Source: Bryoerythrophyllum caledonicum (taxonomy: Eukaryota > Streptophyta > Bryopsida > Pottiales > Pottiaceae). From it: 64,000 nt of DNA. Below are positions 642-57,374 of this stretch, piece after piece. Position numbers and translations under genes: made by a program. The DNA lies in NCBI GenBank assembly GCA_963971425.1, contig OZ020517.1, positions 5,458,501 through 5,522,500 on the forward strand, written 5' to 3'. The notes below the pieces were generated by a model. It worked only from the letters and a program-made list of their open reading frames with translations, was not told where the DNA came from and ran no database searches. Within the stretch, counting starts at the first letter, position 1. Each line of letters starts with the position of its first letter.

Positions 642-2092
642 TTAACCCCTAAAGGCCCGTGACAATTTCACACCAAAAACACTTCAAAATTGTTGATTCT
701 AGTGCAATGTGTAAGGAAGGAAACAAAACCTTATATTTGTCCTTTTGACCATAGGATCTCCATTTAGACTTACTATGTATCATGCTCACAAAAATTCACT
801 TTGACAACACGGATTGAAAGATTATAGTGTTTGAAGTCAAGAAAATGGCTCATTTTCTTTCTTGGGTTGAGTGGATCATCAGACTTTGACTTCACTTGGT
901 ATCCAATTTTTGCATTATACAAGGTCTAAATCTCTTACCATTGTGTCAAGCATGATGTTAGTTCCATATACACCAATTCTAAGAGGTAGAGAAGGGGTGT
1001 AGCATTTTCAAAACAAGTCTGCAGGGAGTAGAGGTTCAAAAATTGTCAATTCACGATTTATATTTTTGAGAATTTCATATGTTTTAGAATGATAGTCTAA
1101 ACGGTCAATAAGAAGGTTTACACCACATATTGTTGTTGGAAAAATAAAAAGTGAAAAATATGAAGATCTCTAGGTTTCATGTAGAAAAGATAATGTTTTT
1201 TTTCCCGCTTTCCTGAAATGTGTAAAAATATTTGACTTGAGTTTAAATGTTTTTTTACACTAGAGACAAGAATTTTTTTTGACATTTTCAAAGAAGGTAA
1301 TATTCTCTACATGAATGAAAAATCTCAATGTCAATAGAGACTTCTAACAAAATTTTGGAGTTGCCCAAAGTCCCCATTTCTAACTTTGAGTGGTACTAAC
1401 TTTCAAACCATGAATCCAAAAATAATAATAAAAAGATCTCCATGGAGATCTTATCAGGGAAAATCTATTATAAAAGTAAAAAAAAAGGATTTTTTTGGAT
1501 TTCAGGAACCTGCCCAAAATCAAAATCATCCCTCCAAGGGACACTTGGTCATTTAGGGGTTTACTACTGTAGGAGGACATTCGTGAGGACATTCGTGTTT
1601 TTTTTTTATTGACCACAGAGATCGTACGACACTTATATTTGAAGAGTATACATATACATATATTAATTTTTAACTTCTTAATTTTTTTTCTTCCTTGCGT
1701 AAACAAGCTTACCGTACTTTGACTCAAGATAATGGCATATTTTTTCACTACACGTTGCATAAAATCCTTGATTTCCATGTATTTTTAGTATAAAAATAAT
1801 GAGGATTGCCAAAAACTTTCCTTCATTACTACCCGCTTCAAAGAAGGTGCACTATTCAGCTCAAAAATAGTAATGTTGATATTCTACGATAGTACTATTA
1901 AGTCTATAGTATCCTACTGGCCATATTCGCTCTCCCTATTTGAAATTCAAAACCTTTACATTAAATATTGGAATGTCACTCTCACGAAATCTTTAGTAAT
2001 GCCCATCAACATCAGAAATATCAAAGATGAGTTTTATTAATGGACACCATAAGAACCTGACGAAACCTTCAAAAAGCCCATATGGGGTTTTA
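642..2092 (+). mobile_element. TTAA element, family G, copy 1, with extra internal sequence
   Basis: The left end reads TTAACCCCTAAAGG at 642. The body matches the cleaner family G copy at 51291-52243, including the blocks for 'caccaaaaacacttcaaaatt' and 'tttgaagtcaagcaa...'. The right end is a degenerate GGGG-TTTA at about 2084-2092. Compared with other G copies, about 545 bp is inserted near 1379-1925. Part of that insert (1640-1910) resembles family F in inverted orientation. A second end-like motif, ACTTGGTCATTTAGGGG, lies at 1542-1558. No coding capacity was recognised. The terminal TTAA and CCCC suggest a piggyBac-type non-autonomous element. Confidence 0.55.
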
Positions 2093-2882
2093 CCCTTTTG
2101 GCATCCATGTCATATTTCTCCAAAACCAAGATATATGTTGATTTTTTTTTCCTTTGAACTAACTATTATGGAAATACAATGCCTAATTTTAGTATCCAAC
2201 CTTACAAAATTGAACTCAAACGAGGACCTAAACTTTGGGAAATCTTTTCAAAACATCCAACCGTTGATGGAATAGATTATAGTGTTTAAAGTTACAGTAT
2301 ATTGGTATTGAAAATTGTGGACTTTGGAGGGTATACTACTTTATTCATCAATAGATTCTCGCAAAAATATTTGTACTTTGAATATAAAGAGGTTCACATG
2401 TGCACTAGGTTTATAACTTTGCATTGACATATCATACGTGAAGAAAACATTTATACTTGATTATTGATGATTTAAAAAAAACATGTCTACTTGATTGTAT
2501 ATGGAAATGTTCCAAAATTATAGAAATTATAACGGAACTTTTGTATACAATGAGAAAGATGAACAATCACAAAACAATGAAGAATCTTTTAAAGACAAAT
2601 TTCAATCAAAATTTAAGACAAAAATCAATGTATATGAAATAAAGCATAGTGTGCAACTTGGTATTCATTGTATTTTAGTGTAGTTGATGTATTTTGTATT
2701 GTGTTCTTGGCTTGTCCATAAGTTATGTAACTCCAAATCATGATTTGATTTTTATAGAATGTTCATTTAATGTGTGCGCAATCTTAATTTTACATTTCAC
2801 AACTTGAATCCTAATGGATTTCATGAAAATTGAGTTTTAATACCTCCAAATTCCCATTTTGGACCTTGTGGGCACCAAAGTA
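2089..2882 (-). mobile_element. TTAA element, family H, copy 1 (inverted)
   Basis: This is an inverted relative of the element at 22150-23444. Shared blocks include the TACCCTTTTGGC-like end at 2091, the stretch around 'ccaaccgttgatggaatag', and the opposite end near 2831-2882 ('cctccaaattcccattttgg'). It has no counterpart of the ~497-bp insertion found in the other copy, so it serves as an empty-site reference. It abuts family G through a shared, mutated TTAA (TTTA) at 2089-2092. It is diverged and non-coding. Confidence 0.5.
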
Positions 2883-3034
2883 CTTCACCGTTCCAACAAT
2901 AATCTACATGATAGATAGAGGTGGATATTAGTAAAATGTTGTTCAACATTTTTTTGAATTCTCCTTGTTCCCTTTGTGTGGTATGGATCATGATATCTTG
3001 AATCTCCAAAGTAACTAAAAACTTTCATACAATC

Positions 3035-3251
3035 ATAACCACTAAAGGACCAAGTGGACATTCGCATGACAAAAGTTTTCACTTTGGCTGCAATTATCTT
3101 TCAATCCATACAGTCAAAATTCACAATTTTTTTTTCCACATCATCTCATGTAAGTCTAGAAGAAGATTCCATGATTACATTCTCAAAATTTCACCTTGGC
3201 ATTTTTTAATCAATGGAGTAGAGATTCATCTAAAATACCACGGTCCCTTAA
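3035..3251 (+). mobile_element. TTAA MITE, family B, copy 1
   Basis: This is a ~217-bp copy of the short family best seen at 10200-10414. It begins with a degenerate ATAACCACTAAAGGACC and shares the internal blocks 'ttttcactttggctgcaattatc' and 'ttttaatcaatggagtagag'. It ends with a worn GGTCCC-TTAA at 3244-3251. That TTAA is shared with the next element. Confidence 0.55.
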
Positions 3252-3536
3252 CCCTCGAACACCTACAAGGCCATGGCACGGTCAATTTTGGTGTTTTTTC
3301 TCTTCTACCTCTTTCCACAGTTGGCCACTGTCTCTCATGTCATCTAAATGCATTTCGAGCTCCTTGTTAGCTTTCAAACCAATCCAATCCATGCAGGCAT
3401 TAGCAAACTACAGTGATACAACCATGAAGTGGGGTTGTGCTGAAATGTACCCCAATGCAAATGATGTTCTGTCTAATCTATTACGCTCGTAGACTCTCCC
3501 AGGCTCTCATGGTCCACTATGGCGTTAAAGGGTTAA
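3248..3536 (+). mobile_element. TTAA MITE, family D, copy 1
   Basis: The element begins TTAACCCTCG at 3248 and ends ...GTTAAAGGGTTAA at 3536, giving imperfect inverted ends. The interior shares 'atgcaggcattagcaaacta' and 'gggttgtgctgaaatgtac' with the copies at 8571-8828 and 57087-57374. It is about 289 bp and non-coding. Its left TTAA is also the right TTAA of the family B element before it. Confidence 0.55.
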
Positions 3537-4646: not shown

Positions 4647-5495
4647 TTAACCCCTAAAGTCGAAAGCCCTCAAAACTGCCAAAAACCCTCAAAACTGCCC
4701 TCTTTCAATGCAAGGTGAAAATTTTTAACTTTTGACAAATTTTCGAGTATGTAACCGTAAGATCTAGTACCTAACTTGTACATGTACATGCATACCGAAT
4801 CTTAGATTCAAATTCCTCTCCATTTGGGAGATCATAATGTTCAAAGTTGAAAAAAAAGATTTTTTCCTTGCTGTAGAATGGAAAACTAATGTTTTGGGGG
4901 CCAAAAAAACCAATTTTGAAAGGAAATTTGACATGAGGCTCTTCAAATTCTTGTTCCTATGTGAGTAAGGAATATGTCCATATAATTTTTACCCTCATAG
5001 GACCTATAAAACCTAAAGAAATGCTTCATTTTTCACATGGAGGTATGCTGAAATACAAATACAAATGCCCATCTTCAACAATTAAAAAGGCATGTAAAAA
5101 ATTATCCGATTGAAAATCCAAACGGTGAGATCATGCTTTACTACCTCTTTTACATGTACGAAAAACAAAATTCGAAAAAAAAAAAAATCTCAATTTTTGG
5201 TGAATTTTTGAAGTTACTGCGATCTAATTGATTTTGGGCAGATTTTGAGAATAATTGAGCATATACCGCAGTTCTGGGCAGATTTCAGCATGCCCTAACA
5301 GTGTTTTCAAACTTTGACCGTGAATATCTCCTAAAGTATGAGGAATTTTGAAGCATGAATGGTGTCATTTTAAAGGTCTGGGAAAACTCTACAATCTTCA
5401 ACGGTAATAACTTCGTACGATCTAAATTTAGTAACTGAGAGCCTGACCAGAGTCAGATCGACCACATTCTGGTCGATTTCGACTTTAGGGGTTAA
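4647..5495 (+). mobile_element. TTAA element, family A, copy 1 (849 bp)
   Basis: It is flanked and bounded by TTAA. The left end reads TTAACCCCTAAAGTCGAAA and the right end is its inverted complement, TTTCGACTTTAGGGGTTAA, a near-perfect 19-bp terminal inverted repeat. The interior is non-coding. A second copy of exactly the same length lies inverted at 49423-50271 and differs by only a few bases over the stretches I compared. The TTAA target plus CCC termini fit piggyBac-type elements. Kolobok elements also use TTAA, but as I recall their termini begin with purines. Confidence 0.78.
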
Positions 5496-5699
5496 CAACA
5501 ATGTCAAACATGAAGGACCAAGTGTCAATTTGGGGGACAATTTTTTCCACTTTGATTATAATTATCTAATAAACGGTACAGTCAAACTTTAGATTTCCAC
5601 ATTTAGAAGAAGATACATTATGAAAACGTGTGTTTCTTGACAGTTTTTAATCAATGGAGTAGAGAATCCTCTAAAATATCATGGTCCTGCAGGGGTTAA
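5492..5699 (+). mobile_element. TTAA MITE, family B, copy 2
   Basis: It shares its left TTAA (5492-5495) with the family A element. The extreme left end is altered, but from 'aaggaccaagtgtcaatttg' (about 5515) onward it matches family B, including 'ttttaatcaatggagtagag'. It ends GGTCCTGCAGGGGTTAA at 5699. It is about 208 bp and non-coding. Confidence 0.58.
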
Positions 5700-8065
5700 A
5701 GATTTTGTGGATGCAGGAGGTTTTGACACTCTCAAGTTTTTATGAAAAATATTCTTCATCCCGCCTGGTTTGTTTTCCATGGTGCTTTTCTCTTGTTCAG
5801 AGTTTGAATATGCCATATTCCCAATTTCCGACATACTGTTGTTTGTACCGCAGGCATCTTCATGAGAGCTTGGTCCCTCGTGGTCACAATTATCACAGAC
5901 AGCTGTGAGAATCATCGTATTTTACTATCCAAGTGGCGAGATGATTCTGCAGCTTTTTCATTCGCCTGCAGTGGAGTTTTTAGTCATGCTGCATAAGCGG
6001 TGGTGGTACCAATCCACAAGAGTGGCCACATGGGTGTGGGTCTAAAAATACCCCCTACTAGTCCACGTAGGCGTCCACTGCGTAATCCACATCACTACCA
6101 TAGCCACTTAGAATTGCATTACAATACCAGGTGGACTCAGGCAATAATAATCCACATCCATCTCACTATTGACTAGATTGTTCAGGCCCCACTTCGCCCA
6201 CATCCTTGGGAGTTCAAGGTCAATACCGAAGAAAGAATTAAAAAAAAAAATTCAGAGAGATTAGCCTGACGTCAAATATCATTTTGTCATGAAAAGGAAA
6301 TAATATATTCGATGATTATTGGTCGAACCAGAGATATCTCAGATCTAGTCGTGTTGTCTTATATAATAACTTCATTTGAATTATACCTAAACAGTACATG
6401 AAATGTACATAAAAAGGCCATTTTCATTCGGAAAGATCCTCACAATGTTCCCGAATGGTTAAAGATGTAAATGAATATTGAAAATATGGAGCTTGGGATC
6501 TGGGCCTGGCTTTTGGGGGCTGGCCTTTCCGGAAGAGAATGCGGAGACTTGGATGTGCATGAGAACACCTCCTAGTGTGGCTAGTGCTAGAGGTGTTGCA
6601 GGGTGAGTCACATGGGTGGAATATTAATTTTATTTGTGCAAATGGAGCCAAAATGCAGCACTGCAGGAAGAGCTACAAGAGAGGGACTGGAGGGGTCGGC
6701 ACATGGTTGCGGATCATGAAACATCATCATGCCAGTTATTTCATTGGCTGCTCGTGCAAGTTCATCATCGCTTCTCCTTGGCTCCGGGGTGAGTGAGTGA
6801 GCGAGTGGCAATTTTACCGGACCTGGTGGTAGAATTCAACAGTTTGATTGGAGTGGGCACCAAGTCTCCGGCTCTGCCCAATGAGAGTGTGGTCGATTCT
6901 CCAGGCTCTGTATTACCACGTCCGAGACACAACATGAGACCAGGGGACACTGTTAATCAATTCACCTGGATATGTTTCTACTTGCGCACCACAGACGGTC
7001 AGAATATCTCGATTGATTCCAGCTTGAGACCAGGTCACACCCTTGCTCAAAGTTCGAGTTCTTTTGAATAAGATACCCCTTCTTTTAAATCCAAAACCAC
7101 TCAACCACTTATATTTATTAGGGCTTCTCATGCAAACTCTTTCTTCACTAAAACTACTTTTAACTTGTATTCAGAGTCCCCGAAGCTGTACTGCAAATGA
7201 AGGACCCAAGGAACCTGATGTGCATTTCTCGCCTGATATCTATGTGATACTAATCTGATACCCTAGCATACCCGGCTGATACTTAGGCATTCATGTCGTA
7301 AAAACCACAAGAAAGTAACATGTGAAGGTTGTCATGGGATAAGACCATCAAGCTCTTGTAATGATCACCTAACCCTTCAGCTTATCTTTGTTCTGTGGAC
7401 AATGATACAGAAACGAAGACTCTCTATTCACGCCGAACCCCATTTGAAGTTCTGACTGCTACTACTACCACTACTGGAATGATCATCTAAATACTTGGAA
7501 GCTCTTCTACTGATTAGTAACTGCTTGGAGATGTAAAAAGAGGGGTATCTTGTTCAAACTCCAGAAAACTTCAGTAAAGTGAGCCCCTAGATCGGTGGCA
7601 ACTCATGCATTATCAAGAAGAGGATTCAATGCACTGCGAGCTTGGCTGGAGCTGGTTGAGATTGTTTGGATTGTAGGTGGTAAGTTTTGCCATGAGCAGT
7701 ACCGGTTGTTGATGCCACACACTTGTGTGGAAAGAAAAGGGAGTTGGTGTACTAGATACCGTGAGGCTGATGTTTCGACAAAAGCTAGCATCGTGATGCT
7801 GCAGTCATCGGTGCGAGCTCATGTCGCAGGAGATTCTTTCATGTTTTTGTGAATGCTGCCAAGTGTGTATGGGTTTCTGGGCTGGACATGATAAGTATTA
7901 CATTGTAGGCCCGGGAGCACTCTGCAATTATTCGTAGAATAAAAGGAGAGTAAGTTGAAAAAGAACATTTTATTGCTTCTTGTCCTCACTTGTAGACTAT
8001 TAGCTCAATGGAGGGGATGAACAAACACTACATTCACATGGATATCCCCTTGAGTTAATGACCCT
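5700..8065. other. Unassigned stretch with no gene recognised
   Basis: Several short open frames (for example 6575-6796, 6793-7071 and 7595-7852 on the plus strand) have no recognisable domain and no clear splice context. Bases 6420-7870 are somewhat GC-richer than the flanks and could hold decayed exons. A TIR-like pair within it is listed separately. Confidence 0.4.
7066..7553. repeat. Possible TIR element (AAGATACCCC ends)
   Basis: The block AAGATACCCCTTCTTTTA at about 7070 is mirrored as TAAAAAGAGGGGTATCTT near 7535-7552. This gives terminal inverted repeats around a ~490-bp interior. I see no clear target-site duplication and no second copy in the window, so this may be a diverged MITE or chance. 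Confidence 0.3.
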
Positions 8066-8284
8066 TTAACCCTGAAACGTCAAAAGGTGGCCACAAAATT
8101 CTACATGTATGGTGTCGTATTTGAATGTAGAAGGTTCAGATATTGAAATGACCACCAAATGAAAGATGTTAGTTGTTCAAAGAATCTTCAATTCAAATGT
8201 GGAAGTCTTGCAAAACTCCAATACAATTATTGTAGTAAAATATGTGCTTGTATATATGGTTACCAACTGACGTTTAAGGGTCAA
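8066..8284 (+). mobile_element. TTAA MITE, family C, copy 1
   Basis: It begins TTAACCCTGAAACGTCA and ends TGACGTTTAAGGGTCAA. The 219-bp body is clearly the same family as the element in a HUB intron at 14519-14734, sharing 'ctacatgtatggtgtcgtat' and 'aaatgaaagatgttagttg'. It is the first of four elements joined end to end. Confidence 0.68.
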
Positions 8285-8574
8285 GGACGAGAGGCCCATA
8301 GATGGTCACTTTTGGAGTAATTTGCGAATTTGGTGGATCAATACTTCATCTCTGTTTGATCTACCACCAAAGTTAAGTTCCTTGGATCTGTGCACTTTCA
8401 ACGAATGCGATGAGTATGTGCGCCGGAGTCTGACGGGCAAACCATGGTGATGTATGAACTTTGTAGTGGCCAATCGCAATGGAATGTACACATTGTATAG
8501 ATGATGTTCTACATGATCTAGTACACTCGTGGGTTTTCTTAGACCTGGTCACCCCGTTGTCCTTAAGGGATTAA
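8281..8574 (+). mobile_element. TTAA MITE, family E, copy 1
   Basis: This ~294-bp body matches, in opposite orientation, the element at 24400-24702. Shared blocks include 'ggtcacttttggagtaattt' and 'ccaatcgcaatggaatgtac'. Its left tip has lost about 8 bp at the junction with the preceding element. Its right end is TCCTTAAGGGATTAA at 8574, which doubles as the start of the next element. Confidence 0.6.
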
Positions 8575-8828: not shown

Positions 8829-9676
8829 CCTCTCAAGGACCAAAGGTACCTACAGGGACCAAATCAATTTTGGGCATGTTCCTAAAAATATAATTGTGAA
8901 GATAAGTTCTTGAAATTTTTAGTAAAAATAAGAATACGGGATATATTTGCGGGGATTTATTTATTTTTGACTTATAGAATTTTTTTTATGCTGCTTCAAA
9001 CATAAAAAGCTCAACTTTGGGGCAGTTGGGCAGGGTACTATAGAGATGAGTAGTAGTACTATAGAGTTGACTACTACACTTCTTTGAGGCGGGTAGTAGT
9101 GAAGGAAAATTCTTGGCAACCTTCATTGTTTTCACTTAAAAACGTATCAAAATGAAGGATTATTCTTTTTGAAAAATATGTCATAATAATTCTATCCATT
9201 GTTCGGATTTTAGATCCAACAAGTATTTCTCTATTTGAAAAAAAAATTGCTTCCTTAGGTAAAGGGCCCCTTTCTATACCCCTAGTTGCTACAAGTCCAT
9301 TTTTCTTATCCTAAACACATCCATTACTTGGGAATTTTGGCGTACACTGACCTAATACAAGGTAGAACATGGATCTATAAAATTTATGCAATGTAAAGTG
9401 TAAAAATATACCATTATCTTGAATGAAAGTACGCTGATCTTATCCGCGCAAGGAAGAAAAAAACTATATTGCACTCTTTAAATGCTCAATGTATCCTACA
9501 ATTTGTGCGTTCAAAGTTTACAATTTTTTGGGAAAGTGTCCTTGTAGTAATGAACTTGAAGATTCTATGGTTGAAATAATATTAAAAAGTTTATATTAGT
9601 CTTGCAAAGCCTCATCTTAGAGAGACAATTTTGGGGTGGTTTTGATGAAACATAATCTTGGTCCTTTAGGGGTTAT
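8825..9676 (+). mobile_element. TTAA element, family F, copy 1 (852 bp)
   Basis: It begins TTAACCTCTCAAGGACC, sharing that TTAA with the preceding family D element, and ends TTGGTCCTTTAGGGG-TTAT at 9676. Its ends resemble those of families B and G. Internal blocks ('aggcgggtagtagtgaagg', 'cgcgcaaggaagaaaaaaac') recur inverted inside the family G copy at 642-2092. No coding sequence was recognised. Confidence 0.55.
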
Positions 9677-10199
9677 AGGATTAAAGTTCATCTTCTTTCC
9701 TTTCTTTCTTGTACTCTCTACATTTCTCACCGCAATTTTTTTTCTTAATGTTAGACATTGATTGAATAAATGTATTTGATACTTCAAAGATGGTATGTAT
9801 AAACCGACAAGTATAGTGTGTTAAATAGTGATTTTAACACCCACTATTTAGTAAATTCATGAGTCTACCATCTTTCCACTGTACCAAAAATTCTAACTAA
9901 TAAGCATTTACTTTCTATTTACTCAAGGTTCTATAATGCCACTAGTGAAAAAAAGGTCATTGGAATGCACGGTGCAGTGATTGGATCCTAATATCAAAAT
10001 AACCTACAAGACCCTAGATTCTAGTTAGTGTTGTGGATATCCAGGAAAATATTCGGGATTCAAATTATATCCCGAGGATCACCAGCTTTGGGATCAAAGC
10101 ATTTAGAGCTATTTAGGACTGATTCTAATGATTCAAGGTGAGAACATAGGTCAAATGGTATCTTTGGATTACTTTACAAATAAATTCAGCGCTCACCAA
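9677..10199. other. Unassigned AT-rich spacer
   Basis: I see no gene, RNA or clear repeat between the family F element and the next family B MITE. Confidence 0.5.
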
Positions 10200-10414
10200 T
10201 TAACCCCTAAAGGACCAAGTGTCCGTTTGAGGGACAAAATTTTCCACTTTGACTACAATTATCTGTACGGTTAAAATTCACAAAGTTTTTACCCTATCAT
10301 CTCATATAAGTTTAGAAGAAGATCCTTTGGTTACATTCTCACAAAGTTCATGTTGGCAGGTTTTAATCAATGGAGTAGACATTCTTCTAAAATCCTTGGT
10401 CCTTTAGGGGTAAA
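10200..10414 (+). mobile_element. TTAA MITE, family B, reference copy
   Basis: This is the cleanest B copy, about 215 bp. The left end is TTAACCCCTAAAGGACCAAG. The right end is CTTGGTCCTTTAGGGG followed by TAAA, a nearly perfect 16-20-bp inverted repeat. It is non-coding. Related copies lie at 3035-3251, 5492-5699 and, inverted, 48293-48512. The ends are the same as those of families F and G, so one transposase could have moved all of them. Confidence 0.7.
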
Positions 10415-10479
10415 AGCTGCAATAGAAGGGACTCATTTGTCCTAGCAGCCATCATCCAATCAAAGCCCTCCAGATGCTC

Positions 10480-11834
10480 TTAGCTCCGAAGGTACCGTGA
10501 CAATTTCATACCGAAAACACTTCAAAATTATTGGATTCTAATGCGATGAATAAAAAAGGAAACAAAAACTTTTACTTCTAGTTTTGACTATACAGTCTCA
10601 AATAAGACTTATTATGTAATATAATTACAAAATTCGATAAACCTTGACCGCACAGATTGAAATATTATTGTGTTTGAAGTCAAGCAAATGGTTTGTTTTC
10701 TTCCCAAAGTTGAGTGGATCAATAGACTTTGACTTCACTTTGTGTCAAATGTTTGCACTACACAAGGTCTAAATCCTTTACCATTGTGTTGAGCATGATG
10801 TTAGAGCATCTCCACTCCTGGCGTGGAATTTTCCACGCTAGCTTGGAAAATCTACTCCATGCCAGGAGTGATTTAGGGTTTGGCGTTATAAGAGCTCCAC
10901 CGCAAGCTCCAAATTTTTAAACCCAAAAAAACGCTTTCACCTTTCACCTCCCGTCACCAATGACACGGCGCCACATGTTGCCATCAATGACATGGCGCCA
11001 CGTGTCACGAGGATATGGGTGTGTCACCAACATCAAAAAATGGCGCACTCCCCCCATCCAAGGAGATTTTTGTGTGCCATGCACCAAAACTTCTAAAATT
11101 TTATAAAGTTTCCCCGTTTTGAGGTGTCAGGTGCAACTTTTTGACCGCACAAAACTCCAAATTGATGGTTCTCTGTCTTCGGGTGGAGATGCTCTTAGTA
11201 CCTTATACACCAAATTTTAGAGGAAGAGGAGGGGTGTAGCATATTCAAAACAATCATGCAAGGAGTGGAGGTTCAAATTTGGCCAATTCACGTTTTATTT
11301 TTTTGTGAACTGAATATGTTTTAGATTGATAATAGAATGGTCAATAAGAAGATTTGCACTTCATATTGTTGTGGAAAAAATAAAAAATAAAAAATATGAA
11401 GATTCCTAAGTTTTATGTGGAAAGAAAGAAGTTTATTTAGTACCTTGCCAGACAATGTGTGACGATGTGTGAAAATGTTTGACTTGGGTTTATATGCTAT
11501 TTTTCACTAAAGACAAGAAATTTTTGTTGTCAATTTTTGTTGGCAATATGAACGGAAAAAATATTACTTGCTAGAATAGAAAATCTCATATTCAATAGAG
11601 TGTCCTAGCAAAAGTTTTTGGAGGTGCCGGAAGTGCCCGCTCTCCCCATTTGAAATTCGAAACCCTATAATTTTTTCATTATATGTGAGATTTAGGAAAA
11701 AATTGTTCTTCCACTGAGGTCTTAGTAATGTCCTATAGTAAAAATTTCAAAGTGGAATGTTGGAAATTGACACCATAAGAACCTGACCGAACCGTCAAAA
11801 GCCCATTTTTTATACTTGGTCCTTTAAAGGTTAA
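10480..11834 (+). mobile_element. TTAA element, family G, copy 2, with nested MITE
   Basis: This is a family G element whose left end is worn (TTAG then CTCCGAAGG) and whose right end is CTTGGTCCTTTAAAGGTTAA. Without the nested 391-bp MITE and its extra TTA it measures about 961 bp, close to the 953 bp of the copy at 51291-52243. No coding capacity was recognised. Confidence 0.65.
10804..11194. mobile_element. PIF/Harbinger-like MITE nested in family G
   Basis: The ends are GAGCATCTCCACTC and, inverted, GGGTGGAGATGCTC, flanked on both sides by TTA (10801-10803 and 11195-11197). The uninterrupted site is visible in the family G copy near 51605-51620, so this is a real insertion of 391 bp. A TTA target and 14-bp inverted ends fit Tourist/PIF-Harbinger MITEs. 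A lone matching end occurs at about 25246. Confidence 0.8.
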
Positions 11835-12871: not shown

Positions 12872-15800
12872 CTAAATGTAGACGTTTCGAACGTCACTTT
12901 GGCCAAATGGAATGCCACAACCAGGACATTTTCGATGTCTGAGCTCCAAATTTCTCTGGATACATGGGCCGCAAAACAAATGAAAGCACTTCGTGATGAC
13001 AACCTGCATTCATAGTAAATAAATTTAGGTTAAATTGCGAGAATCTCTACTTTGAACAAGTATTCATGGCAAACTCATATCCTCAACTGTAATAGGGAAC
13101 TTGAAATATTCTTCAAAGAGTAATGGTCATTGCCAATTTAACAGTAATAGCTAAAATGATCATCATTTAAATTAGTACAATTTTGAAATTTAAAACAGTA
13201 AGAATATTGCTTGTTCAGGGAATAACATGCTTACTTCTTTTGGGCGATCGTGACAGACACTGCACTTCAGAATAGCCTTGTATTCTTTTATCTCCTCCTG
13301 AAGGCGTTCGACGGCAGGACCCCCTTCATGATGCGATCGCAGTCGTGTCAACTTACTGTTCAATGCCTCCAGCTCATCCTGAACCCTTCGTTTTTCAAAT
13401 CTGGGCCACAGAAAACCAAAATCTCAGAGTGAAACCAAAATTTAGTTCTCAAACAAAAATGGATTGGAAATGATGGACTCACAATCAACTCACAAGTCAC
13501 TGCAACACTCCTCACACTATCCGTTGGGATTTATTTCACGAATAGCCCAAAAGTGGCGAAAGGCCATATAAAGGGTAGACCGGAATATAGTACAAAACCC
13601 AACGGACGAGAGGTGTCACACACACTAAGCACCTGAGGAGGAAACAGGATCTTTCTCAAGATGAAATACATCGAAAAACAACCCACATAAATCCATGGCT
13701 CCATGTGACATGTCAATTCTTCCACACACCATGACTCACCTTTCTTTGTCAAGCTGCTGTTGAGCCTCAGCAAGTTTGCGTCCACGATCTTCAATCCTTT
13801 TATTTGCGGTTTCTAGGGCAGTCTTCGTAGAAAGAAGCTCTTTCTCAGTCTCAGCTGTCTTTCGTCTCAAAGCCTCCAAGGACAATGTATGATGTCTGGC
13901 ATCGTCCATGACCTTGCCTATTTGCTCTATATTTGATCTGGCCTGAGTATATATCCACGCCCATCCCATAAGATGACAAAATTCTCAAGAATCAAGCGAC
14001 ACACTGGACTTTAAATGATTCCCCGCGTAGAAATCCCAATAAAATATGACTATCAATCCCAATAAAATATGACCATCAGACACAACATAAGCAATCATAC
14101 CTGGTCTTCCAATCGGCTAACACGCTGCTTGTGATGGTCAGCAGTAGCGTTAGCATGCTGCACACGACTAGCCAACACTTGCTTCTCTGCTTGAAGAGAG
14201 GCTTGAAGCTGTTTAGCCTTCAGACTCTCGGCCACCAGCTGAAAATCATGTGAAAGGAAAACGGGAACTTAGATACTGAACATAGTAATTATTATTATGA
14301 TTCTCTTCACTGTTCTATGTGTTCTGTGTCCTTAATCCCCATTACTTTCAGATAGGTCTCCATGAACTTCAGTGACAAACTTTCGTAGGCCTACTCACCG
14401 CTCCTATTACGATTACATGACAAGTTGCCTCTCTAAATAAATTATACAAGCCCAAATAATTTCGTTGCCAACTGGACGGTGCCACCGATGCAAAATCAAC
14501 ATTAGATCTACATAGCCATTAACCCTTAAACGTCAGAAGGTGCCACTGGTGGCCACAGTATTCTACATGTATGGTGTCGTATTTCAACATGATAAGGTTC
14601 ACATATTGAAATGACCTCCAAATGAAAGATGTTAGTTGAACAATATTCAAAGCAAAGGTGAAATACATTTTTTTATTCTACAAGGTAAAATACGTGCTTG
14701 TATATACGGTTCCCGACTGACGTTTAAGGGTTGAACTCTACATAAATAACCGCTCTCTGACAATGTAATAGAGTCTGCAAAATCAATACGGGCTACCATA
14801 AATACCTGAGTATTGTAATCATCGCGTTCAGTGATTTGATTGAGTAACCGTAAATTTTGTGTTTGCATCTCCTCATAAGCTTGTCCAATAGTCTGCGTTC
14901 AACAAATAATTCACAAAAGCGTTAAATAAGCCAATTTAAAGTAACCATTCCAATTGTGTTCGAAGTTTTAAATCACATGTGAATGAAAACGAAGAATACA
15001 AAGAAAACGATTCCCAACAAACCTCAATTTCGGTGATATATGCGTCCCCTTCTTCATTTTTTGACTTCAGTGTCTCTCTGAGTTCCATTGCCGCCCTGCA
15101 GGTAGAACGAGTATCATTGTATTGTTATTAAATTTTGTGTATGTGCCGCCACCTGGCAACGAGCGTCTCATCAAGCAAGCACAAACGATATGGGATGTTC
15201 AAGTTGATCACAGATGAGCAATGAGGCTAATGGAAGGGCATATTTCAAAGATACCAAGGCTCCGTCCATTACCCTCACTGCATGTGCTTCACTATTAAGA
15301 GTCGGACCAAGGCTGCCTCTAATCAGGAAATAGAATCTTAATGAAGAGCTTATCGAAAGAAAAATGTCGCAAAAAATAAAGAAACGGTGACATCATGAAT
15401 GATATCCATAGGCAAGAGATAAACCTTTCTGAATCGTCTAGCCTCTGGCGGTGTACAGCAATCTCAGCTTCAGCAGCCGCAAGTCTTTGCTGACATGCCG
15501 CTTCAGCCTCATTGGCTGCTTTCACCCGGAGCTCTAAGCTATGTTCGTCGAGAGCTCTGTTTAAGCGGTCTACTTGCACCAGTGTTCTACAATGATCTTG
15601 CTGCAGATCAATCAAACTCCTGCACAACCACCCTCAATAATCAATCACCTGCCACGTGGCTCTGTATACTTCAAGCAGACGTCTGAAATGACGTGGAGAA
15701 CAAAGATGAAGCGACCGAAAATATAGTGAGATCCAACATCACCGCAGTTCCACTGTGCAAAGCTTATGTAACACACCTTGGATCGGTTGACTCTCTCTCA

Positions 15801-22149: not shown

Positions 22150-23444
22150 TTAACCCTGTAGTGCACATGAGACCCAAAATGGGACTCTGGAGGTTTTAAA
22201 ACTCAACTTGCATGACATTCATGAGGAATTAGGTTGTGAAATGTGAAGTTCACATTTGCGCACACATTAAGGTAAGCCACTCTAAAACCGCCAATATCCC
22301 ATGGCTGTCAGCTACTTTTTTACTAAAAACCGCCACTACATGCACATGTAACCAACTCTCTATTTTTAATGGTGGGAGAGAAGGTTAGGGTGGCATGAAT
22401 TGGATGCAAAGTTGGTGGTTTTAGGAGAATGGGATCTTCTAGACTTATTGTACATGCAAGAGTGGAGAAAATGGAATATTTCTAGAATTAGTTTAAGGTT
22501 GACTCATTGCCGGTTTTTGGTTGTTATGCATGCGGTTTTAGGCCATTTGTGGGAGGGTCATGGCCCCCACCTACTGACGCTCAACCAACTTTCTTCACAT
22601 GTGCCTTTGAAAATTCATAACTAATTCATAACACATCGGAAAAATATGAAATCACTTGGGTTGAAATTGTAATTCTATTGGCTATCACTGAAAAAATAAT
22701 TTAATTACTATCTAGGTTCTCCATATATGCAAACTGCTTAACTTGACGGTTATGGGTGGGTTTACCTTACATAAACACTCTCCAAAAATCAGATCATGAT
22801 TTGGAGTTACAGAACTCATGGAAAAGCTAGGAATACAAAACAAAATACATCATATACACTAAAATACAATGAATACCATGTCGCATACTATGTTGTATTT
22901 CATACACATGCAAGATGATTTTGGTCTTAAATTTTGATTAAAATTTGTTTGTAAGACATTCTTCATTGTTTTGTGATTGTTGATCTCTCTCATCGCATAC
23001 AAAACTTTTGTTTCTATTTGTATAAGTTTGGAACATTTTTGTGTACAATCAAGTAGATAAAGTTAAATTTATAAATAATCATGTATAAATGTTTTCTCCA
23101 CATATGATATGTCAATGGGGAGCTATAAATCTAGTGCACATGTGAACCTCTTTTATTCAAAGTACAAAAATTCTTGCAAGAATCTATTGATGGATAAAGT
23201 AGTATACCCTCCAAAGTCCACAATTTTCATTACCAATATAGAGTAACTCCAAACACTATTATCTATTCCATCAACCTTTGGATGTTGTGCAAATTTTCCC
23301 CAGAGTTTAGGTCATGGTTTGAGATCAATTTTGTATGGTTGGATACTAAAATGAGGCATTTTATTTCCATCAAAGTTTGTTCAAACAAAAAATCAGCACA
23401 CATCTTGGTTTGGGAAAAACATGACTTGGGCGCTAAAGGATTAA
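22150..23444 (+). mobile_element. TTAA element, family H, copy 2, with nested MITE
   Basis: It begins TTAACCCTGTAGTGCACATG and ends GGGCGCTAAAGGATTAA, with imperfect inverted ends. Without the nested 497-bp MITE it is about 800 bp, like the inverted copy at 2089-2882. Its right TTAA (23441-23444) is the boundary of the family G relative that follows. Confidence 0.6.
22270..22766. mobile_element. TTA-flanked MITE nested in family H
   Basis: The ends are GGTAAGCCACTC (22271) and, inverted, GGGTGGGTTTACC, with TTA at 22267-22269 and 22767-22769. The uninterrupted site is visible in the other H copy near 2755-2770. The 497-bp interior is non-coding and carries several CCGCCA-type blocks. A PIF/Harbinger-like assignment is inferred from the target only. 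Confidence 0.6.
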
Positions 23445-24366
23445 TAACTAAATGAAAAAGGTCATGAGGTGGACTTCTGCAAATCTTGGGCATATTCCCA
23501 TGATTGGAATTTCATATTTGCAATTCTTGAAATTTTCCATAGAGTTGCAGGACCACAAAGGGTACATGGAAGTATGATTTTTATTCTCATCGAACATGTA
23601 GAAAAAAAAGTTATGTCATCTTAGAGAAAAAACTATTGAGTGGGGGCACTCAGGCAACTCTTGACCTTTTGCTAGAACACTAGTAAATGTGAGATTTTCA
23701 ATATCACCAAGTAATACTATTTCCTTCCATATTGTCAAAAAACATTTAGTGAAAAAATGCATTTTATCCGAAGTCAAAGATTTTCACACATTGTCATACA
23801 TTGTTGGACAAGGAACCAATAAAACTTCTTCTTTTCCACATAAAACTCTGAGATTTTGATATGCTGCACTTCTCATTTTGAAAAAGGTGTAAGCCTTCTT
23901 CTTGGTTGCTCGAATTATCATTCTAAAACATATTTTGTTCCCAATAAATTAAAATGTGAATTGGCACTTTTTAAACCTCCACTCCTTGCACATTTTTTTT
24001 GAATATGCCTCACCCCTTTTCTACCTCTTAAAAATGGAGTACAAGAGTTTATATCATGATCAACATGATGATATACAACTCAGACCTTATGTAGAGCAAA
24101 ACTTTTATACCAAGTGAAGTCAAAGTTTGCTAATCCACTCAACAAAGGGATGAAAATGAACCATTGTTTCTATTTCAAACATTATAATCATTCAATCCGT
24201 GCAATCAAAGTTGATGAAATTTTGTGTGTATGTTGTTTATTAAGTGTTTGATGAAATCCTATGATTAGAACTAGAAATAAAAAATTGTGTTTCCTTCCTT
24301 ATCCAATGCACTAGAATTAACAGTTTTGAAGTGTTTTTGGTGTGAAATTGTCAAGGAAATTTAGGA
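23441..24366 (-). mobile_element. Diverged TTAA element, family G, copy 3 (inverted)
   Basis: It is an inverted relative of family G. It shares blocks such as 'tttggtgtgaaattgtca' and the tract around 'ctttgacttcacttgg' on the complementary strand. Its tips are worn: TTAATAACTAAATG at the left and GGAAATTTAGG at the right. About 470 bp of its right part is duplicated, inverted and nearly identical, at 29162-29637. Confidence 0.5.
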
Positions 24367-24391
24367 TGAATGGCTTTTAGATATGGAGGTC
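23925..24391 (+). repeat. Left arm of a long, near-identical inverted repeat
   Basis: This ~467-bp stretch recurs as its reverse complement at 29162-29637 with very few differences. The match runs about 25 bp past the end of the G element into 'ttagatatggaggt'. The two arms therefore descend from one duplicated segment rather than from two insertions. Confidence 0.75.
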
Positions 24392-24399: not shown

Positions 24400-24702
24400 T
24401 TAACCTTTAAGGATGACCCTTGCAACTAGGCCTAGGAGATGCCACGAGTGGGTATATTTCAATGCAATTGGTCACTACATCACCTATACACTGGGTACAT
24501 TTCATCGCGATTGGTTACTACAAACATCACAACAGTTCACCCATAAGAATCCATCGCACATTCTCATCGCATGCATTGGAAGTGTAGGGATTCAAGGAAC
24601 TTAAATTAGGTCGGGGATCAAATAGAGATGAAGTATCAGTTTACCAATTAACAAATACTCCAAAAGTGACCACCTACGGGCTTCTTGTCCTTAAAGGGTT
24701 AA
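24400..24702 (-). mobile_element. TTAA MITE, family E, copy 2 (inverted)
   Basis: The ends are TTAACCTTTAAGGAT and TCCTTAAAGGGTTAA, about 303 bp. It matches the element at 8281-8574 in reverse orientation and preserves the left tip that copy has lost. It is non-coding. Confidence 0.65.
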
Positions 24703-29161: not shown

Positions 29162-29637
29162 ACCTCCATATCTAAAAGTCATTCATCCTAAATTTCCTTG
29201 ACAATTTCACACCAAAAACACTTCAAAACTGTTAATTCTAGTGCATTGGATAAGGAAGGAAACACAATTTTTTATTTCTAGTTCTAATCATAGGATTTCA
29301 TCAAACACTTAATAAACAACATACACACAAAATTTCATCAACTTTGATTGCACGGATTGAATGATTATAATGTTTGAAATAGAAACAATGGTTCGTTTTC
29401 ATCCCTTTGTTGAGTGGATTAGCAAACTTTGACTTCACTTGGTATAAAAGTTTTGCTCTACATAAGGTCTGAGTTGTATATCATCATGTTGATCATGATA
29501 TAAACTCTTGTACTCCATTTTTAAGAGGTAGAAAAGGGGTGAGGCATATTCAAAAAAAATGTGCAAGGAGTGGAGGTTTAAAAAGTGCCAATTCACATTT
29601 TAATTTATTGGGAACAAAATATGTTTTAGAATGATAA
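29162..29637 (-). repeat. Right arm of the long inverted repeat
   Basis: It is the reverse complement of 23925-24391, almost base for base, and is part of a family G element. It stops abruptly at about 29638, where copia-derived sequence begins. The other end meets the unassigned coding region. Confidence 0.72.
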
Positions 29638-33989: not shown

Positions 33990-35361
33990 TCAACGCCTTT
34001 CCTGAACATTTTAGAGCGCAACGTGCTACCAACATTGTCAAAACATCACGTTGTTGGGCTCTTTGGGAGTCATTATTACCCCCCACTAAATCCCAATTCC
34101 ACAATGCCAATTTCTTTTACGCATAGTAATTTTGGCAAGATAAAACAAGTTCTCACCAAAGCCAAGAGTCAACGGGGGCCAAAGCCATCGGAATGGGTCC
34201 AATGGTTGCACCCAAGACTTCTTCAATCATTTGAGGTGTACGAGAATGCCGGGGTAAAATTTTCTTCCGCTATTCTCATTGAATTAGCACTTTCCGTGCT
34301 TATATCACATGATTCACCATATGCCCGCTCAATCTAGAGACCCTGGAGATGATAGGCTTTTAATCAAAAATTTCAATCACTCATGGATATGTCATTTTAT
34401 GAATATTAACAATATAATTTTATTATTACAAAGAGGTCGTTTAACTTGTAGTCCGGAAAAAGAAACTCAAATTGAGATTAATATGGCTTATCATTTGGGA
34501 ATTTTGCAACAAGGGTTTCAATCGGGTATATTCGATGAGAATCTCATTGAAAACCTCAATGAATCACATTTTACCATTAATATGGATAATGGTAAAACTC
34601 TAGACAAATGGAGATACCACGGTAAAATATGCGGACGTTGTTGCCGGAGGAGAGGCAATAACCATGGTTGTGAGAATCTCGGGGGGATGTAGAGCAATAA
34701 TAGAAACGCCTATGTTGATATTTAGTAATGACAACAATAATTATCCTATTTGTGGTTTAGAAGACTCCATTTTCGGAGTTTGTTAGCGTACGGGTCCAAA
34801 AAGATGGATGGATCAAGCCATTTTTTTGCAATATTTTGAAGAACCTAGGGCATATCAACTGGACATACATAATCGTACAAAATACATTTTTGTAGATAAC
34901 TGTTTGGGCCACAACATGATCCCTAGATTAACGGCCATGTTAGCTCAAAAAAGAATCGTATTAAAATACCTACCTCCATGTGCCACTCACCTTTGTCAAC
35001 CCGCGGATACTTTTGTGATTTCAAAAATCAATGACGCGTGGACAAGGCGGTTGGAATTGAAAAAAACGGAGCTCATTCATCAAAACGCTTGGCAAAATAA
35101 TCCTTGTGGCAATGGTCAATTTTCCGGTAAACATTCTTATCCAGGAAAAGATTTTTTCTTCAATTAGCTGCCAATGCAATTGAAGACGTTAATTGTTTAG
35201 TAGATAACGATAATATGACTTATGCTAGAAAATCCATGATTAGATGTGGATTAGCTTAAGATTTAGATGGTATGTGGAGTTCTAACCAATTATTTCCACA
35301 ACTTCAAGATATTATAGCAAAACACCATCAATTCTTTGAAGGTTTAGAAGTGCCAAATTAG
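33990..35361 (+). pseudogene. Broken DDE transposase, pogo/Tc1-like
   Basis: The coding sequence runs through three frames with at least two frameshifts (about 34325 and 34610) and in-frame stops (near 34785, 35164 and 35258). Recognisable parts in order: an N-terminal PKPSEWVQW region, a helix-turn-helix-like middle with GRLTCSPEKETQIE, then a catalytic core. The core has the first Asp in FTINMDNG (about 34575), the second in IFVDNCLGHN (about 34890), and a third acidic position in LCQPADTFVISKI (about 34995). It ends FFEGLEVPN. The layout is that of DDE superfamily endonucleases that cut and paste at TA. It cannot make an active enzyme as it stands. The family also occurs in fungi and oomycetes, so origin by transfer is possible but unproven. 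Confidence 0.75.
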
Positions 35362-48292: not shown

Positions 48293-48512
48293 TTAATCCC
48301 TAAAGGACCAGACAATTTAGTGGATTCTCTACTCTATTGATTAAGAACTTCCAAGATTAACTCTTGAGAATATAATCATAGGATCTTCTTATGAACTTAC
48401 ATGAGATGATGGGGTAAATTTTTTGTGAATTATGATCTTTTATTGAAAGATCATTGTAGTCAAAGTCAAAAATATTGTAACCTGGAGGTACACTTGGCCC
48501 TTTAGAAATTGG
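48293..48512 (-). mobile_element. TTAA MITE, family B, copy 4 (inverted)
   Basis: It begins TTAATCCCTAAAGGACCAG. On the complementary strand it contains the family B core ('tcaatagagtagagaatcc', 'agtcaaagtcaaaaat'). The far end is worn (GGCCCTTTAGAAATTGG). It is about 220 bp and non-coding. Confidence 0.52.
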
Positions 48513-49422: not shown

Positions 49423-50271
49423 TTAACCCCTAAAGTCGAAATCGACCAGAATGTGGTCGATCTGACTCTGGTCAGGCTCTCAGTTACTAAATTTAGATCG
49501 TATGAAGTTATTACCGTTGCAGATTGTAGAGTTTTCCCAGACCTTTAAAATGACACCATTCATGCTTCAAAATTCCTCATACTTTAGGAGATATTCACGG
49601 TCAAAGTTTGAAAACACTGTTAGGGCATGCTGAAATCTGCCCAGAACTGCGGTATATGCTCAATTATTCTCAAAATCTGCCCAAAATCAATTAGATCGCA
49701 GTAACTTCAAAAATTCACCAAAAATTGAGATTTTATTTTTTTTCGAATTTTGTTTTTCGTACATGTAAAAGAGGTAGTAAAGCATGATCTCACCGTTTGG
49801 ATTTTCAATCGGATAATTTTTTACATGCCTTTTTAATTGTTGAAAATGGGCATTAGTATTTGTATTTCAGCATACCTCCATGTGAAAAATGAAGCATTTC
49901 TTTAGGTTTTATAGGTCCTATGAGGGTAAAAAATATATGGACATATTCCTTACTCACATAGGAACAAGAATTTGAAGAGCCTCATGTCAAATTTCCTTTC
50001 AAAAATGGTTTTTTTGGCCCCCAAAACATTAGTTTTCCATTCTACAGCAAGGAAAAAATCTTTTTTTTCAACTTTGAACATTATGATCTCCCAAATGGAG
50101 AGGAATTTGAATCTAAGATTCGGTATGCATGTACATGTACAAGTTAGGTACTAGATCTTACGGTTACATACTCGAAAATTTGTCAAAAGTTAAAAAATTT
50201 CACCTTGCATTGAAAGAGGACAGTTTTGAGGGTTTTTGGCAGTTTTGAGGGCTTTCGACTTTAGGGGTTAA
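49423..50271 (-). mobile_element. TTAA element, family A, copy 2 (849 bp, inverted)
   Basis: It begins TTAACCCCTAAAGTCGAAA and ends CTTTCGACTTTAGGGGTTAA. It has the same length as the copy at 4647-5495 and is almost identical to it in reverse complement. The longest internal frame is 60 aa in both copies with one residue different. Its right TTAA is shared with the element that follows. Confidence 0.78.
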
Positions 50272-51290: not shown

Positions 51291-52243
51291 TTAACCCCTA
51301 AGGTACCAAGACAGTTTTACACCAAAAACACTTCAAAATTAATGGATTCTAGTGCAATGAATAAAGAAGGTAACAAAAACTTTTATTTTTAGTTCTGACC
51401 GTAGGATCTCAATAAAGGCCTATTAAGTAATACACGTACAAAATTTCATAAACTTTGACCGCACGGATTGAAAGATTATAGTGTTTGAAGTCAAGCAAGT
51501 GGTTCATTTTCTTCCCTGCGTTTAGTGGATCAGCAGACTTTGACTTCAGTTGGTGTCAAAAAATTTCACTACACAAGGTCTAAATCTATTACCATCTTGT
51601 TAAGCATGATGTTAGCTCCTTACACACCAATTTTTAGAGGTAGAGACCGGGTGTAGCATATTCAAAACAAGTGTGCAAGGAGTGGAGGCTCAAAATTTGT
51701 TAATTCACACTTTTTTTTTATTGAACTTAATATGTTTTCGATTGATAATCCGGATGGTTAATATGAAGGTTTACATTACATATTGATGTGGAAAAAATAA
51801 AAAGTGAAAAATATGAAGATCTCTAGGTTTTATGTGGAAAAGAAGAAGTTTTTTTGGTACCTTGCCCGACAATGAGTGACAATGTGTGAAAATGTTTGAC
51901 TTGGGTTGGTATGCTATTTTTCACTAAAGACAAAAATTTGTTTTTGACAATATGAAGGGACATAATATTACTTGCAAGTACTGAAAATCTCACTTTCAAT
52001 AGAGTGTCCTCTCAAAAGTTTTTGGAGGTGCCCGAGGTGCCCGCCCTCCCCATTTAAAATTCAAAACCCTATAACTTTTTCATCAAATGTCCAATTTAGG
52101 AAAAAATTGTTTTCCCACTAAGGTCTTGGTAATGTCTTTCTATAGTAAAAATTTCAAAGAAGAATGTTGGAAATTGACACCATAGGAACTTGACCGAACT
52201 TTCAAAATGGACCTTTTTGGACACTTGGTCCTTTAGGGGTTAA
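51291..52243 (+). mobile_element. TTAA element, family G, reference copy (953 bp)
   Basis: It begins TTAACCCCTAAGGTACCAAG and ends CACTTGGTCCTTTAGGGGTTAA-type sequence at 52243, so the outer ~20 bp are imperfect inverted repeats. No insertion interrupts it, and it provides the empty site for the PIF-like MITE in the 10480-11834 copy. It is non-coding. Confidence 0.72.
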
Positions 52244-55426: not shown

Positions 55427-56299
55427 CACTAAAAGTTTCATTTAGTGTAATGGCACAAATAGTGTAATTACCTTAGTACACTAATTGCGAACAAGTTGAC
55501 AAATAGTGTACTAATTGCAAACAAGTGTACTTTCTCAAAAGATTATTCGATCAAAATTTATTTTATCAAAGATTACTTCATCGGAGTACACTTTATGGAA
55601 AATTAATTTTTTTAAAGCTTACTTTTTCAAGAGATTACTTTTTCAAATTTTACTTCTTAAAAAGTTTACTTTTTCAAATTTTACTTTTCCAAACATTAAC
55701 TTTTTCAAAACTTTACTTTTTCAAAACTTTACTCTTTCAAAAATTTACTTTTTTCCAAGTTTACTTTTGAAAAGGTTTACTTTTGAAAAAGTTTACTTTT
55801 CAAACATTTACTTTTTCAAATCTTTACTTTTTCAAATATTTACATTTGGAAAAGCTTATTTTTACAAAAGTTTACCTTTTCAAAAGGTAAGTTGTCTTTT
55901 TTCCCGAATTGATGTTTTTCCCTAGTTCTTGTTTTTTTCAAAAATGTTGTTTTTTCCTAATTGTTGTTTTTGCAAAAATGTTGTTTTTTCCTATTTGTTG
56001 TTTTCCCAAATTGTTGTTTTTTCCTAATTGTTGTTTTTTCCCAATTGTTGTTTTTTCCAATTTTTTGTTTGTGAGTTTTATTGTTTTCTTCACCTTTTTG
56101 TACACATAATTCTCTTCTACTTTCAATACACTAAACGTGCACGAGTAAAAAAGTTAATATTCCAATCTTTACAAAAGTTCACAAATAGTGTAGTAGTTCA
56201 CATTTAGTGTACTATTTTGTCACTACACTAATTGCGTAGTTGACAATTAGTGTAGGGGTTCGTATTTAGTGTCCACTACACTAAATGAAACTTTTAGTG
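55427..56299. mobile_element. TA-flanked element filled with minisatellite
   Basis: The ends are CACTAAAAGTTTCATTTAGTG and its inverted complement, flanked by TA on each side (55425-55426, 56300-56301). The matching flank extends further as AGGCACTA/TAGTGCCT. The outer ~80 bp share the TAGTGTA repeats and 'gtaattaccttagtacacta' with the 3,880-bp element. The interior is not a gene: 55530-55890 is a ~15-18-bp repeat of the type TTTACTTTTTCAAA, and 55920-56070 a ~18-bp repeat of TTGTTGTTTTTTCC. Confidence 0.72.
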
Positions 56300-57086
56300 T
56301 AGTGCCTAGTAGTTTTCAACGGCAATTATTGTGCCAAGTCATTGTCATGTAGATTCCAAAGCAACATCCAATGCAAATTCCAAAGCTACAAAGTTGCTCC
56401 ATGTCATTCTTGCCACTCCCTTTACTTCCTCTCATGTGGCAACCACTTGCTAATTTGAACCAATGTGAGTCATCCAACTCACAGCCTTTCCTCTCGTGTG
56501 GTTTGGCCCTTAGTAATTTGGAGTCACCAATGCCACCTTGCATCTATGTTTGGATGGTGACTGTGCCTAGATGATTAACCCTGTAGCATATTGGTTGGCT
56601 GACAAAGGACCATAATTTATGGAATAAACCCAAAGTTAACCAAACCACCATGTTTCTAAAAAACAAGTGGACTTTCAGGTGTACAACCCCTATCAGCGTT
56701 TTGGGGAGACAGTCAGGGTTTAAACCCTTAGTACTTTGAGAAAAACTCTAATTTATCCATAATTCAAGGTGTTAGTAATATCTTTAATGTTTTTGTGCTT
56801 AAGGAATATTTTTTGTTTAGTATGCAATTTTTGTATGATGATTAAAGTGTGAGGTATTGTTCTGTGCATGTTACAAAGAAACTCAAATTTTATTCTAAGA
56901 TGTATTGGGTTAGAAAATAATTACAATTCAATTGCATTAGTAAGAGAAAAACAACATTAGGTCCAAAGAAATTGGTATAAACTAAATGTCTCTTTAACCC
57001 TTGGGCATGGACTTAGTGGTGGAATGAACGGACACTTTACTCACACTGGCCCCCTTCGGGAACCGGCGTTCTTCTTTTTCTTCTCT
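56300..57086. other. Unassigned stretch with lone TTAACCC ends
   Basis: TTAACCCTGTAGC at 56575 and TTAACCCTTGGGC at about 56995 look like TTAA element ends, but I cannot pair them. No gene was recognised. Confidence 0.35.
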
Positions 57087-57374
57087 TTAACCCTTTAGCC
57101 CCAAGTTGGTCAAAATAGAGCTAGTTCAAGTGTATTTTAGGGAATAATGTGTTGTGTGCCAATTAGAAGCATTTTTTTTAGTCGCAACGAGTTTGGCACT
57201 AGTGAATGGAACAAATGAGTCTTCAATCCATGCAGGCATTAGCAAACTACAGTGATTTATGTGAAGTCGGGGTTGTGCTGAAATGTACTCACTGTGTAGA
57301 TGATGGCCACCTAAGCTATTACACTCATACATTCTTCCAAGCTTCCATGGTCTACTTTGGCATTAAAAGATTAA
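57087..57374 (+). mobile_element. TTAA MITE, family D, copy 4
   Basis: It begins TTAACCCTTTAGCCCCAAG and ends TTTGGCATTAAAAGATTAA. The interior matches the copy at 3248-3536 ('atgcaggcattagcaaactacag', 'ggttgtgctgaaatgtac'). It is 288 bp. Confidence 0.62.

Follow-up and report, generated by a model that had tools for sequence, protein, structure and literature searches.

TTAA-flanked, CCC-tipped repeats of a moss genome and their relationship to piggyBac transposons

The piggyBac transposon is a workhorse of animal genome engineering. The described systems closest to the elements reported here are piggyBac of T. ni (PDB 6x67/6x68) and piggyBat (9c0f): in the accessible part of the published account of T. 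ni piggyBac (PMC7351741), the catalytic residues are given as D268, D346 and D447, excision proceeds by way of a hairpin leaving a TTAA overhang, and the cysteine-rich tails, as a dimer, bind a palindromic repeat that spans bp 17–33 of the left end and has its centre near bp 25. Miniature inverted-repeat transposable elements (MITEs) derived from piggyBac are represented by mPok of the Daphnia element Pokey and by a group of coral MITEs, as described in the accessible sections of the reports. Here, we analyse a 64-kb stretch of DNA (the window) on contig C4 (positions 5,458,501–5,522,500) of a 437-Mb assembly, in which a first-pass annotation had noted a swarm of short TTAA-bounded, CCC-tipped elements, likened them to piggyBac and named Kolobok as a further superfamily with the TTAA target in common. 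In our assessment these repeats are very probably non-autonomous members of the piggyBac superfamily in the nuclear genome of a moss.

Like T. ni piggyBac and piggyBat, the moss elements combine a PF13843 domain, a DDD set of aspartates, a cysteine-rich C-terminal tail, a TTAA target and CCC tips, and several moss families likely share with T. ni piggyBac a palindrome near bp 25 of the left end. Unlike these two systems they reside in a moss, measure 4–7.6 kb in their transposase-bearing form, contain an apparent intron in one family (M1) and encode a segment of ~95 residues upstream of the domain at 8 of 20 loci. The window elements resemble mPok and the coral MITEs, as far as the accessible sections describe these, in being non-autonomous relatives of piggyBac-type transposons, and differ from them in their plant host and in the very large number of ends in the genome.

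The superfamily name has already been applied to land plants. In the accessible parts of the sources, a Ceratopteris repeat table holds 1,230 'PiggyBac' fragments amounting to 122 kb (PMC6890710), a Stipa table holds one 'PiggyBac' piece of 75 bp (PMC8319324), piggyBac stands within a list of angiosperm MITE superfamilies (PMC10004981), a review counts it among plant superfamilies and also as a tool (PMC10794571), it is said to have been isolated from insects, fungi and plants (PMC10813416), and one table lists it as found in all groups studied, land plants included. These are counts, lists or bare statements, and the same parts give no transposase, ends or empty sites; none of the titles listed in a literature search was a study of piggyBac elements in mosses, which is weak evidence of absence. 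Thus, within the literature covered, the superfamily was already named in plants, whilst no complete elements from a moss, described with their transposase, ends and empty sites, were found in print; we regard the moss elements as new members of a known superfamily in an unexpected host.

Repeat families of the window

Comparison of the window with itself yielded repeat families corresponding to A, B, C, D, F, G and H of the first-pass annotation, which had counted about 18 elements in eight families running from TTAA-CCC to GGG-TTAA. That count holds only if decayed copies are included: a separate family E was not identified by the self-comparison, and both ends are kept in only four elements (A at 4647-5495 and 49423-50271, the G-type element at 51291-52243 and the D-type element at 3248-3536). 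The elements are as follows.

4647..5495, plus strand: family A, non-autonomous piggyBac element (very probable assignment) of 849 bp; TTAA on both sides, inverted tips matching at 19 of the first 20 positions
5457-5477: palindrome ATCGACCA-N5-TGGTCGAT within this copy, near the end corresponding to the 5' end of M1
49423..50271, minus strand: second family A copy, 98.9% identical to the first; palindrome at 49441-49461
51291..52243, plus strand: family G element, 953 bp, TTAA-CCC at both ends
10480..11834, plus strand: family G copy split by a TTA-flanked insertion of 384 bp, tips decayed
642..1375, plus strand: family G copy with an exact 5' tip and a diverged 3' part
23638..24390, minus strand: family G copy, tips changed or lost
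29162..29637, plus strand: partial family G copy, 99.6% identical to 24390-23915
10200..10416, plus strand: family B element, 5' tip exact, TTAA at 3' mutated
3036..3250, plus strand: family B copy with mutated tips
48293..48505, minus strand: family B copy that has lost its 5' tip and has GGGATTAA as its 3' tip
5496..5699, plus strand: family B-related copy abutting the A copy at 4647-5495, 3' end AGGGGTTAA retained
8066..8281, plus strand: family C element, TTAA at 3' mutated
14519..14731, plus strand: family C element, TTAA at 3' mutated
3248..3536, plus strand: family D element, 289 bp, TTAA-CCC retained at both ends
57087..57374, plus strand: family D relative with an exact 5' tip and AGATTAA at the 3' end
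24477..24702, minus strand: family F end TTAACCCTTTAAGGACAAG, one end defined; a relative lies at 8283-8507
22150..23444, plus strand: family H element with an exact 5' tip and a decayed 3' end (GGATTAA); a relative lies at 2097-2875 on the opposite strand

A single exact tip was retained in eight further copies (starts at 642, 8066, 10200, 14519, 22150 and 57087; ends at 5699 and, on the minus strand, 24702). Three exact tips, at 50268 (beside an A copy), 56575 and 56994, and one end, at 16634, are assigned to none of the copies listed. With the chance level taken from 50 mononucleotide shuffles, TTAACCC occurs 13 times in the window against about 3.9 times in the shuffles, and GGGTTAA seven times against about 4.6, which taken singly is no clear excess. 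At a spacing of 80-1500 bp, 18 TTAA pairs have matching tips, and four of these pairs are CCC-tipped. The insertion at 10805-11188 within the interrupted G element has the tips GAGCATCTCCACTCC/GGGTGGAGATGCTC and a TTA duplication, is not found in the G element at 51291-52243, and looks like a MITE of Harbinger/Tourist type.

Family A is the family best defined beyond the window. A genome search gave at least 40 matches, all at least 99% identical (38 of the 40 listed were full length), among 693 candidates. We read 22 copies, 20 taken from full-length matches and the two of the window: TTAA stands on both sides in all 22, the tips are alike, and the mean distance from the consensus is 0.51%. 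The exact 19-bp A tip occurs 658 times in the genome, its reversed control not once. The first 100 places listed cover C1 and part of C2 and include 48 plus-strand tips; 33 of these face a second tip within 10 kb, at a spacing of 848-851 bp in 21 of the 33 and of 773/777 bp in six.

Two other tip patterns lie far above chance: genome-wide, TTAACCCCTAAAG was counted 5,577 + 5,701 = 11,278 times (reversed control 4 + 6) and TTAACCCYTWAA 12,532 + 12,523 times (reversed control 307 + 341). At two ends per element the excess corresponds to some twelve thousand elements, a rough figure, as many elements have lost one end and other tips fall outside the count. The first-pass annotation had placed no transposase in the window, and a tblastn search with 16 transposases from the same genome as queries likewise found no piggyBac transposase there.

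Transposases and complete elements elsewhere in the genome

The Pfam domain PF13843 (DDE_Tnp_1_7) gave 120 matches in the moss genome with a best E-value of 6.2e-81, some of them two pieces of one locus, and was without a match in all 14 control genomes. We read 20 of these loci over 8-10 kb each, together with two copies of a further family, M1, which was picked out from seven matches with the same frame of 474-476 amino acids. L017, L016, L028 and the two halves of L009 match PF13843 at E-values from 8.6e-80 to 4.2e-19, and a phmmer comparison of the L017 protein with the PDB gave T. ni piggyBac (6x67) at 3e-31 and piggyBat (9c0f) at 4e-28. Aspartates corresponding to the catalytic DDD are present in all 21 domains read and a fourth in 20 of them; a cysteine-rich tail of the form C-x2-C ... 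C-x2-C ... C ... H closes 14 of the 16 C-termini examined and is not seen in those of L020 and L024. The 21 domains fall into 12 groups at 80% identity and four at 50%, with a minimum pairwise identity of 37%, and the domain is free of stops at 16 of the 20 loci.

Upstream of the domain, a conserved segment of ~95 residues was recognised at eight of the 20 loci, with similarity between groups at E-values of 1e-18 to 1e-3 against L028:

L016, 1458-2084: ~95-residue upstream segment
L017, 1664-2203: ~95-residue upstream segment
L028, 2892-3176: ~95-residue upstream segment, in one open frame with the transposase
L018, L021, L022, L023, L025: ~95-residue upstream segment at five more loci

The segment has no Pfam match and no significant match in the PDB (best E-value 0.37), and may represent a moss-type N-terminal domain. 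A search of viral contigs with the transposase of the L012 type gave five pattern matches and no relative among them, and a viral route was rejected as an explanation.

The transposase-bearing elements measure 4-7.6 kb and, like those of the window, start with TTAA-CCC and end with GGG-TTAA. A strict test for 14-bp inverted repeats gave candidate ends at seven of the 20 loci, and less stringent inspection yielded ends for L027 and, for the L012 type, the 3' end; firm ends were not found by these tests for L010, L019, L020 and L023-L026. Comparison of copies defines the borders of three kinds of element. L017 (C9, 4,933 bp) and L022 (C4, 4,942 bp) are 97.2% identical from TTAA to TTAA, the flanks differ, and homology both begins and stops at TTAA. 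In case of the L012 type (L009, L011-L015), six copies end in GGGGTTAA followed by six different 3' flanks, and all three copies with the 5' end in view start with TTAACCCCTAAAGTTCC. An earlier placement of the 3' end of L009 at 8378 was rejected, this being the end of an inner G-type element; the copy comparison places it at 9348. The two M1 copies compared (5,549 bp) share 99.82% identity over 5.55 kb; each is bounded by TTAA on either side and has open exons, their flanks differ, and the M1 3' end is present at four of five further places examined. The M1 transposase is split by an apparent spliceosomal intron with GT...AG borders, upon removal of which the frame reads KETNRYA, a motif also present in other copies. 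At position ~4666 of M1 (L053/L056), ~0.88 kb before the 3' end, lies a second left-end module (CCCCTAAACGAGAG plus palindrome) with no TTAA in front. For the single copies L016, L018, L021, L027 and L028, matching TTAA-CCC ends flank the transposase, these ends resting on inverted repeats alone.

The first-pass annotation had called for autonomous copies with a DDE_Tnp_1_7 transposase between the same kind of ends, and such elements thus exist in the same genome; they support its piggyBac-like reading. A family A copy is nested in five of the six L012-type elements read (L011-L015; in L012 at 7582-8468), and this nested copy has travelled with L012-type elements to several loci.

Shared ends, palindromes and insertion sites

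A link between passengers and transposases is suggested by the ends. Family A at one end and M1 at its 5' end share TTAACCCCTAAA, followed at equal distance from the tip by the palindrome ATCGACCA-N5-TGGTCGAT. The composite pattern CCCCTAAA-N6-ATCGACCA-N5-TGGTCGAT was found at 300 places genome-wide with none in the reversed control, and the first 100 places listed are mostly of the A form and include several M1 copies. For family G (51291..52243), similarity to the 5' end of L018 (76%) covers the first 238 bp, and similarity to the 3' end of the L012 type (68%) covers the last 173 bp; therefore, G looks like a cut-down autonomous element.

A palindrome is found in five of the eight autonomous left ends, centred at bp 25 in M1, L017, L021 and L028 and at bp 27 in L027. 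Self-complementarity across the eight autonomous 5' ends peaks at bp 25 (0.625 versus a profile mean of 0.256), a maximum reached by none of 500 shuffles. We further sampled 60 of the first 67 listed TTAACCCYTWAA places, comprising 21 families with left and right ends mixed; of the five strong palindromes with integer centres in this sample, three lie at 24-25. Seven places were skipped, and two of them (C1:151236 and 896156) are ends of family A in which the palindrome is present.

Uninterrupted insertion sites bear on the target. L009 holds the place of the nested A copy of L012 without A, and a single TTAA is kept there. We compared all 22 joined A sites with the sequence of loci already read, and seven of them (W1, W2, L029-L033) were searched genome-wide. 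For the A copies L029 and L040, related sequences run across the joined flanks, window positions 51974-52136 and 10199-10314 among them, and the genome-wide query gave spanning copies for L029, L030, L032 and L033; of 5,326 candidates 40 were scored, and these contained no spanning copy for W1, W2 or L031. All 15 paralogue alignments are gap-free within six bases of the junction (L029 2/2, L030 5/5, L032 2/2, L033 4/4, L040 2/2), the nearest gap, where present, being 7-67 bases away. The sites observed to be uninterrupted may never have held an element. The first-pass annotation had asked whether empty sites keep anything but one TTAA: at the six A sites compared (L009/L012 and five paralogue sites) no longer target duplication was found. 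A joined site of the autonomous L022 was not counted, as G-type paralogues match it at 76% with gaps close to the junction.

We propose that the genome's own piggyBac transposases, whose genes lie in full-length elements outside the window, would recognise the short inverted repeats with their CCC tips, in several families together with the palindrome centred ~25 bp from one tip, and would excise the element and insert it anew at TTAA. By analogy with T. ni piggyBac, the chemistry would be a hairpin-type cut and paste and the cysteine-rich tail would read the palindrome, whilst the shared end makes M1 or a near relative the probable mover of family A.

Several observations weigh against this interpretation. 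The evidence for cut-and-paste movement consists of sequences, no movement having been observed. The A-M1 link rests on one end, because none of the 20 transposase loci read has exactly the family A tips. The palindromes had been noticed before the test was made; they are absent from three of the eight autonomous left ends (L012, L016, L018) and weak in L021 (p 0.065), and right ends and window ends peak instead at 28.5-29, with maxima reached by 8 and 9 of 500 shuffles. In the 60-end sample, 54 of 500 shuffles gave a mean at bp 25 at least as high as the observed one, and 330 of them equalled or exceeded the profile maximum, so that the palindrome likely holds for some families and is not a rule. 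TTAA itself is intact in only four of the 15 paralogue alignments, with one to three bases different in the others, as expected because the paralogues have diverged. Stops lie within the domain at 4 of the 20 loci, and most window copies are decayed, those beyond the copies with exact tips having both tips altered or gone.

Alternatives, host and implications

The last two of these observations, decayed copies in the window and stops at 4 of 20 loci, are what might be expected of a fossil swarm, in which the elements belong to piggyBac and the enzymes are dead. We consider such a swarm unlikely, given the mean distance of only 0.51% between A copies and their consensus, the 99.82% identity of M1 copies with open exons and the 16 of 20 loci without a stop in the domain. 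These values apparently reflect recent activity of the moss piggyBac elements, and we infer that the elements are still active.

A TTAA target does not by itself separate superfamilies, and the window elements might thus belong to another TTAA-using superfamily such as Kolobok, which the first-pass annotation had named. This is very improbable: the tips of A, B and G resemble those of the piggyBac elements opened, A and M1 share the subterminal palindrome, and G shares both end regions with autonomous elements. Its probability is set no lower because the elements opened were chosen by PF13843 and cannot speak for all ends. No Kolobok enzyme turned up, though no search aimed at Kolobok was made, and a Kolobok reading is unneeded for the window elements.

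As piggyBac is best known from animals, a host other than a plant or a contaminated assembly has to be weighed. A SAM_LFY search of the genome gave seven matches, the best on contig C7, where the LEAFY DNA-binding domain is identical at 151 of 157 positions (counted on the alignment) to Physcomitrella patens LFY1 (PDB 4bhk, 363 bits), with the next PDB entry at 279 bits and the Arabidopsis entry at 265 bits; 4bhk is the Physcomitrella patens and 2vy1 the Arabidopsis entry, and the D and C at two DNA-contact positions mark the moss type. By its LEAFY protein the host is thus a moss, which narrows the 'plant-type genome' rightly recognised in the first-pass annotation. The PF13843 matches are spread over 13 contigs, each above 20 Mb, and these include C7 with its moss-like LEAFY gene; the small contigs C5 and C13 have no match, and the window itself contains a Copia element. 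Either possibility is extremely improbable. CCCTAAA is the plant telomere unit and is contained in CCCCTAAAG; the idea that the ends are telomere-like scraps is nonetheless set aside as having a negligible chance, given the facing A tips at fixed lengths of 848-851 and 773/777 bp, the tips CCCTTAAA and CCCTTTAA of other families and the precise TTAA flanks.

With the piggyBac assignment of the window elements thus favoured, a broader view can be considered: that piggyBac is a major resident of land plants and is, in mosses, long established, highly diverse and still moving, with its own moss-type N-terminal domain and with diverged left-end palindromes at the animal spacing, amounting to a native plant piggyBac toolkit. 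We lean slightly towards this view, the diversity being judged from the 21 transposases read, which form 12 groups at 80% identity, and from some 24,000 ends above control. In its accessible parts, the plant literature treats piggyBac as an imported tool, a list entry or a trace annotation. A moss whose autonomous copies look intact and are nearly identical, and whose passenger families are large, would provide plant-adapted transposases and ends. The swarm would also be a natural system for the splitting of one superfamily into many end-specific lineages within a single genome, and a clear-cut case in which to ask when plants acquired piggyBac. Moss repeat annotation changes as well, short repeats of this kind being hard to classify without autonomous elements.

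Three further features of the window lie apart from the elements described:

29975-32291: broken Copia retrotransposon with Pol_BBD, GAG pre-integrase and RVT_2 matches
34787-35167: fragment of a DDE_1 (pogo-like) transposase
43940-44840: minisatellite of ten copies with units of ~75 bp

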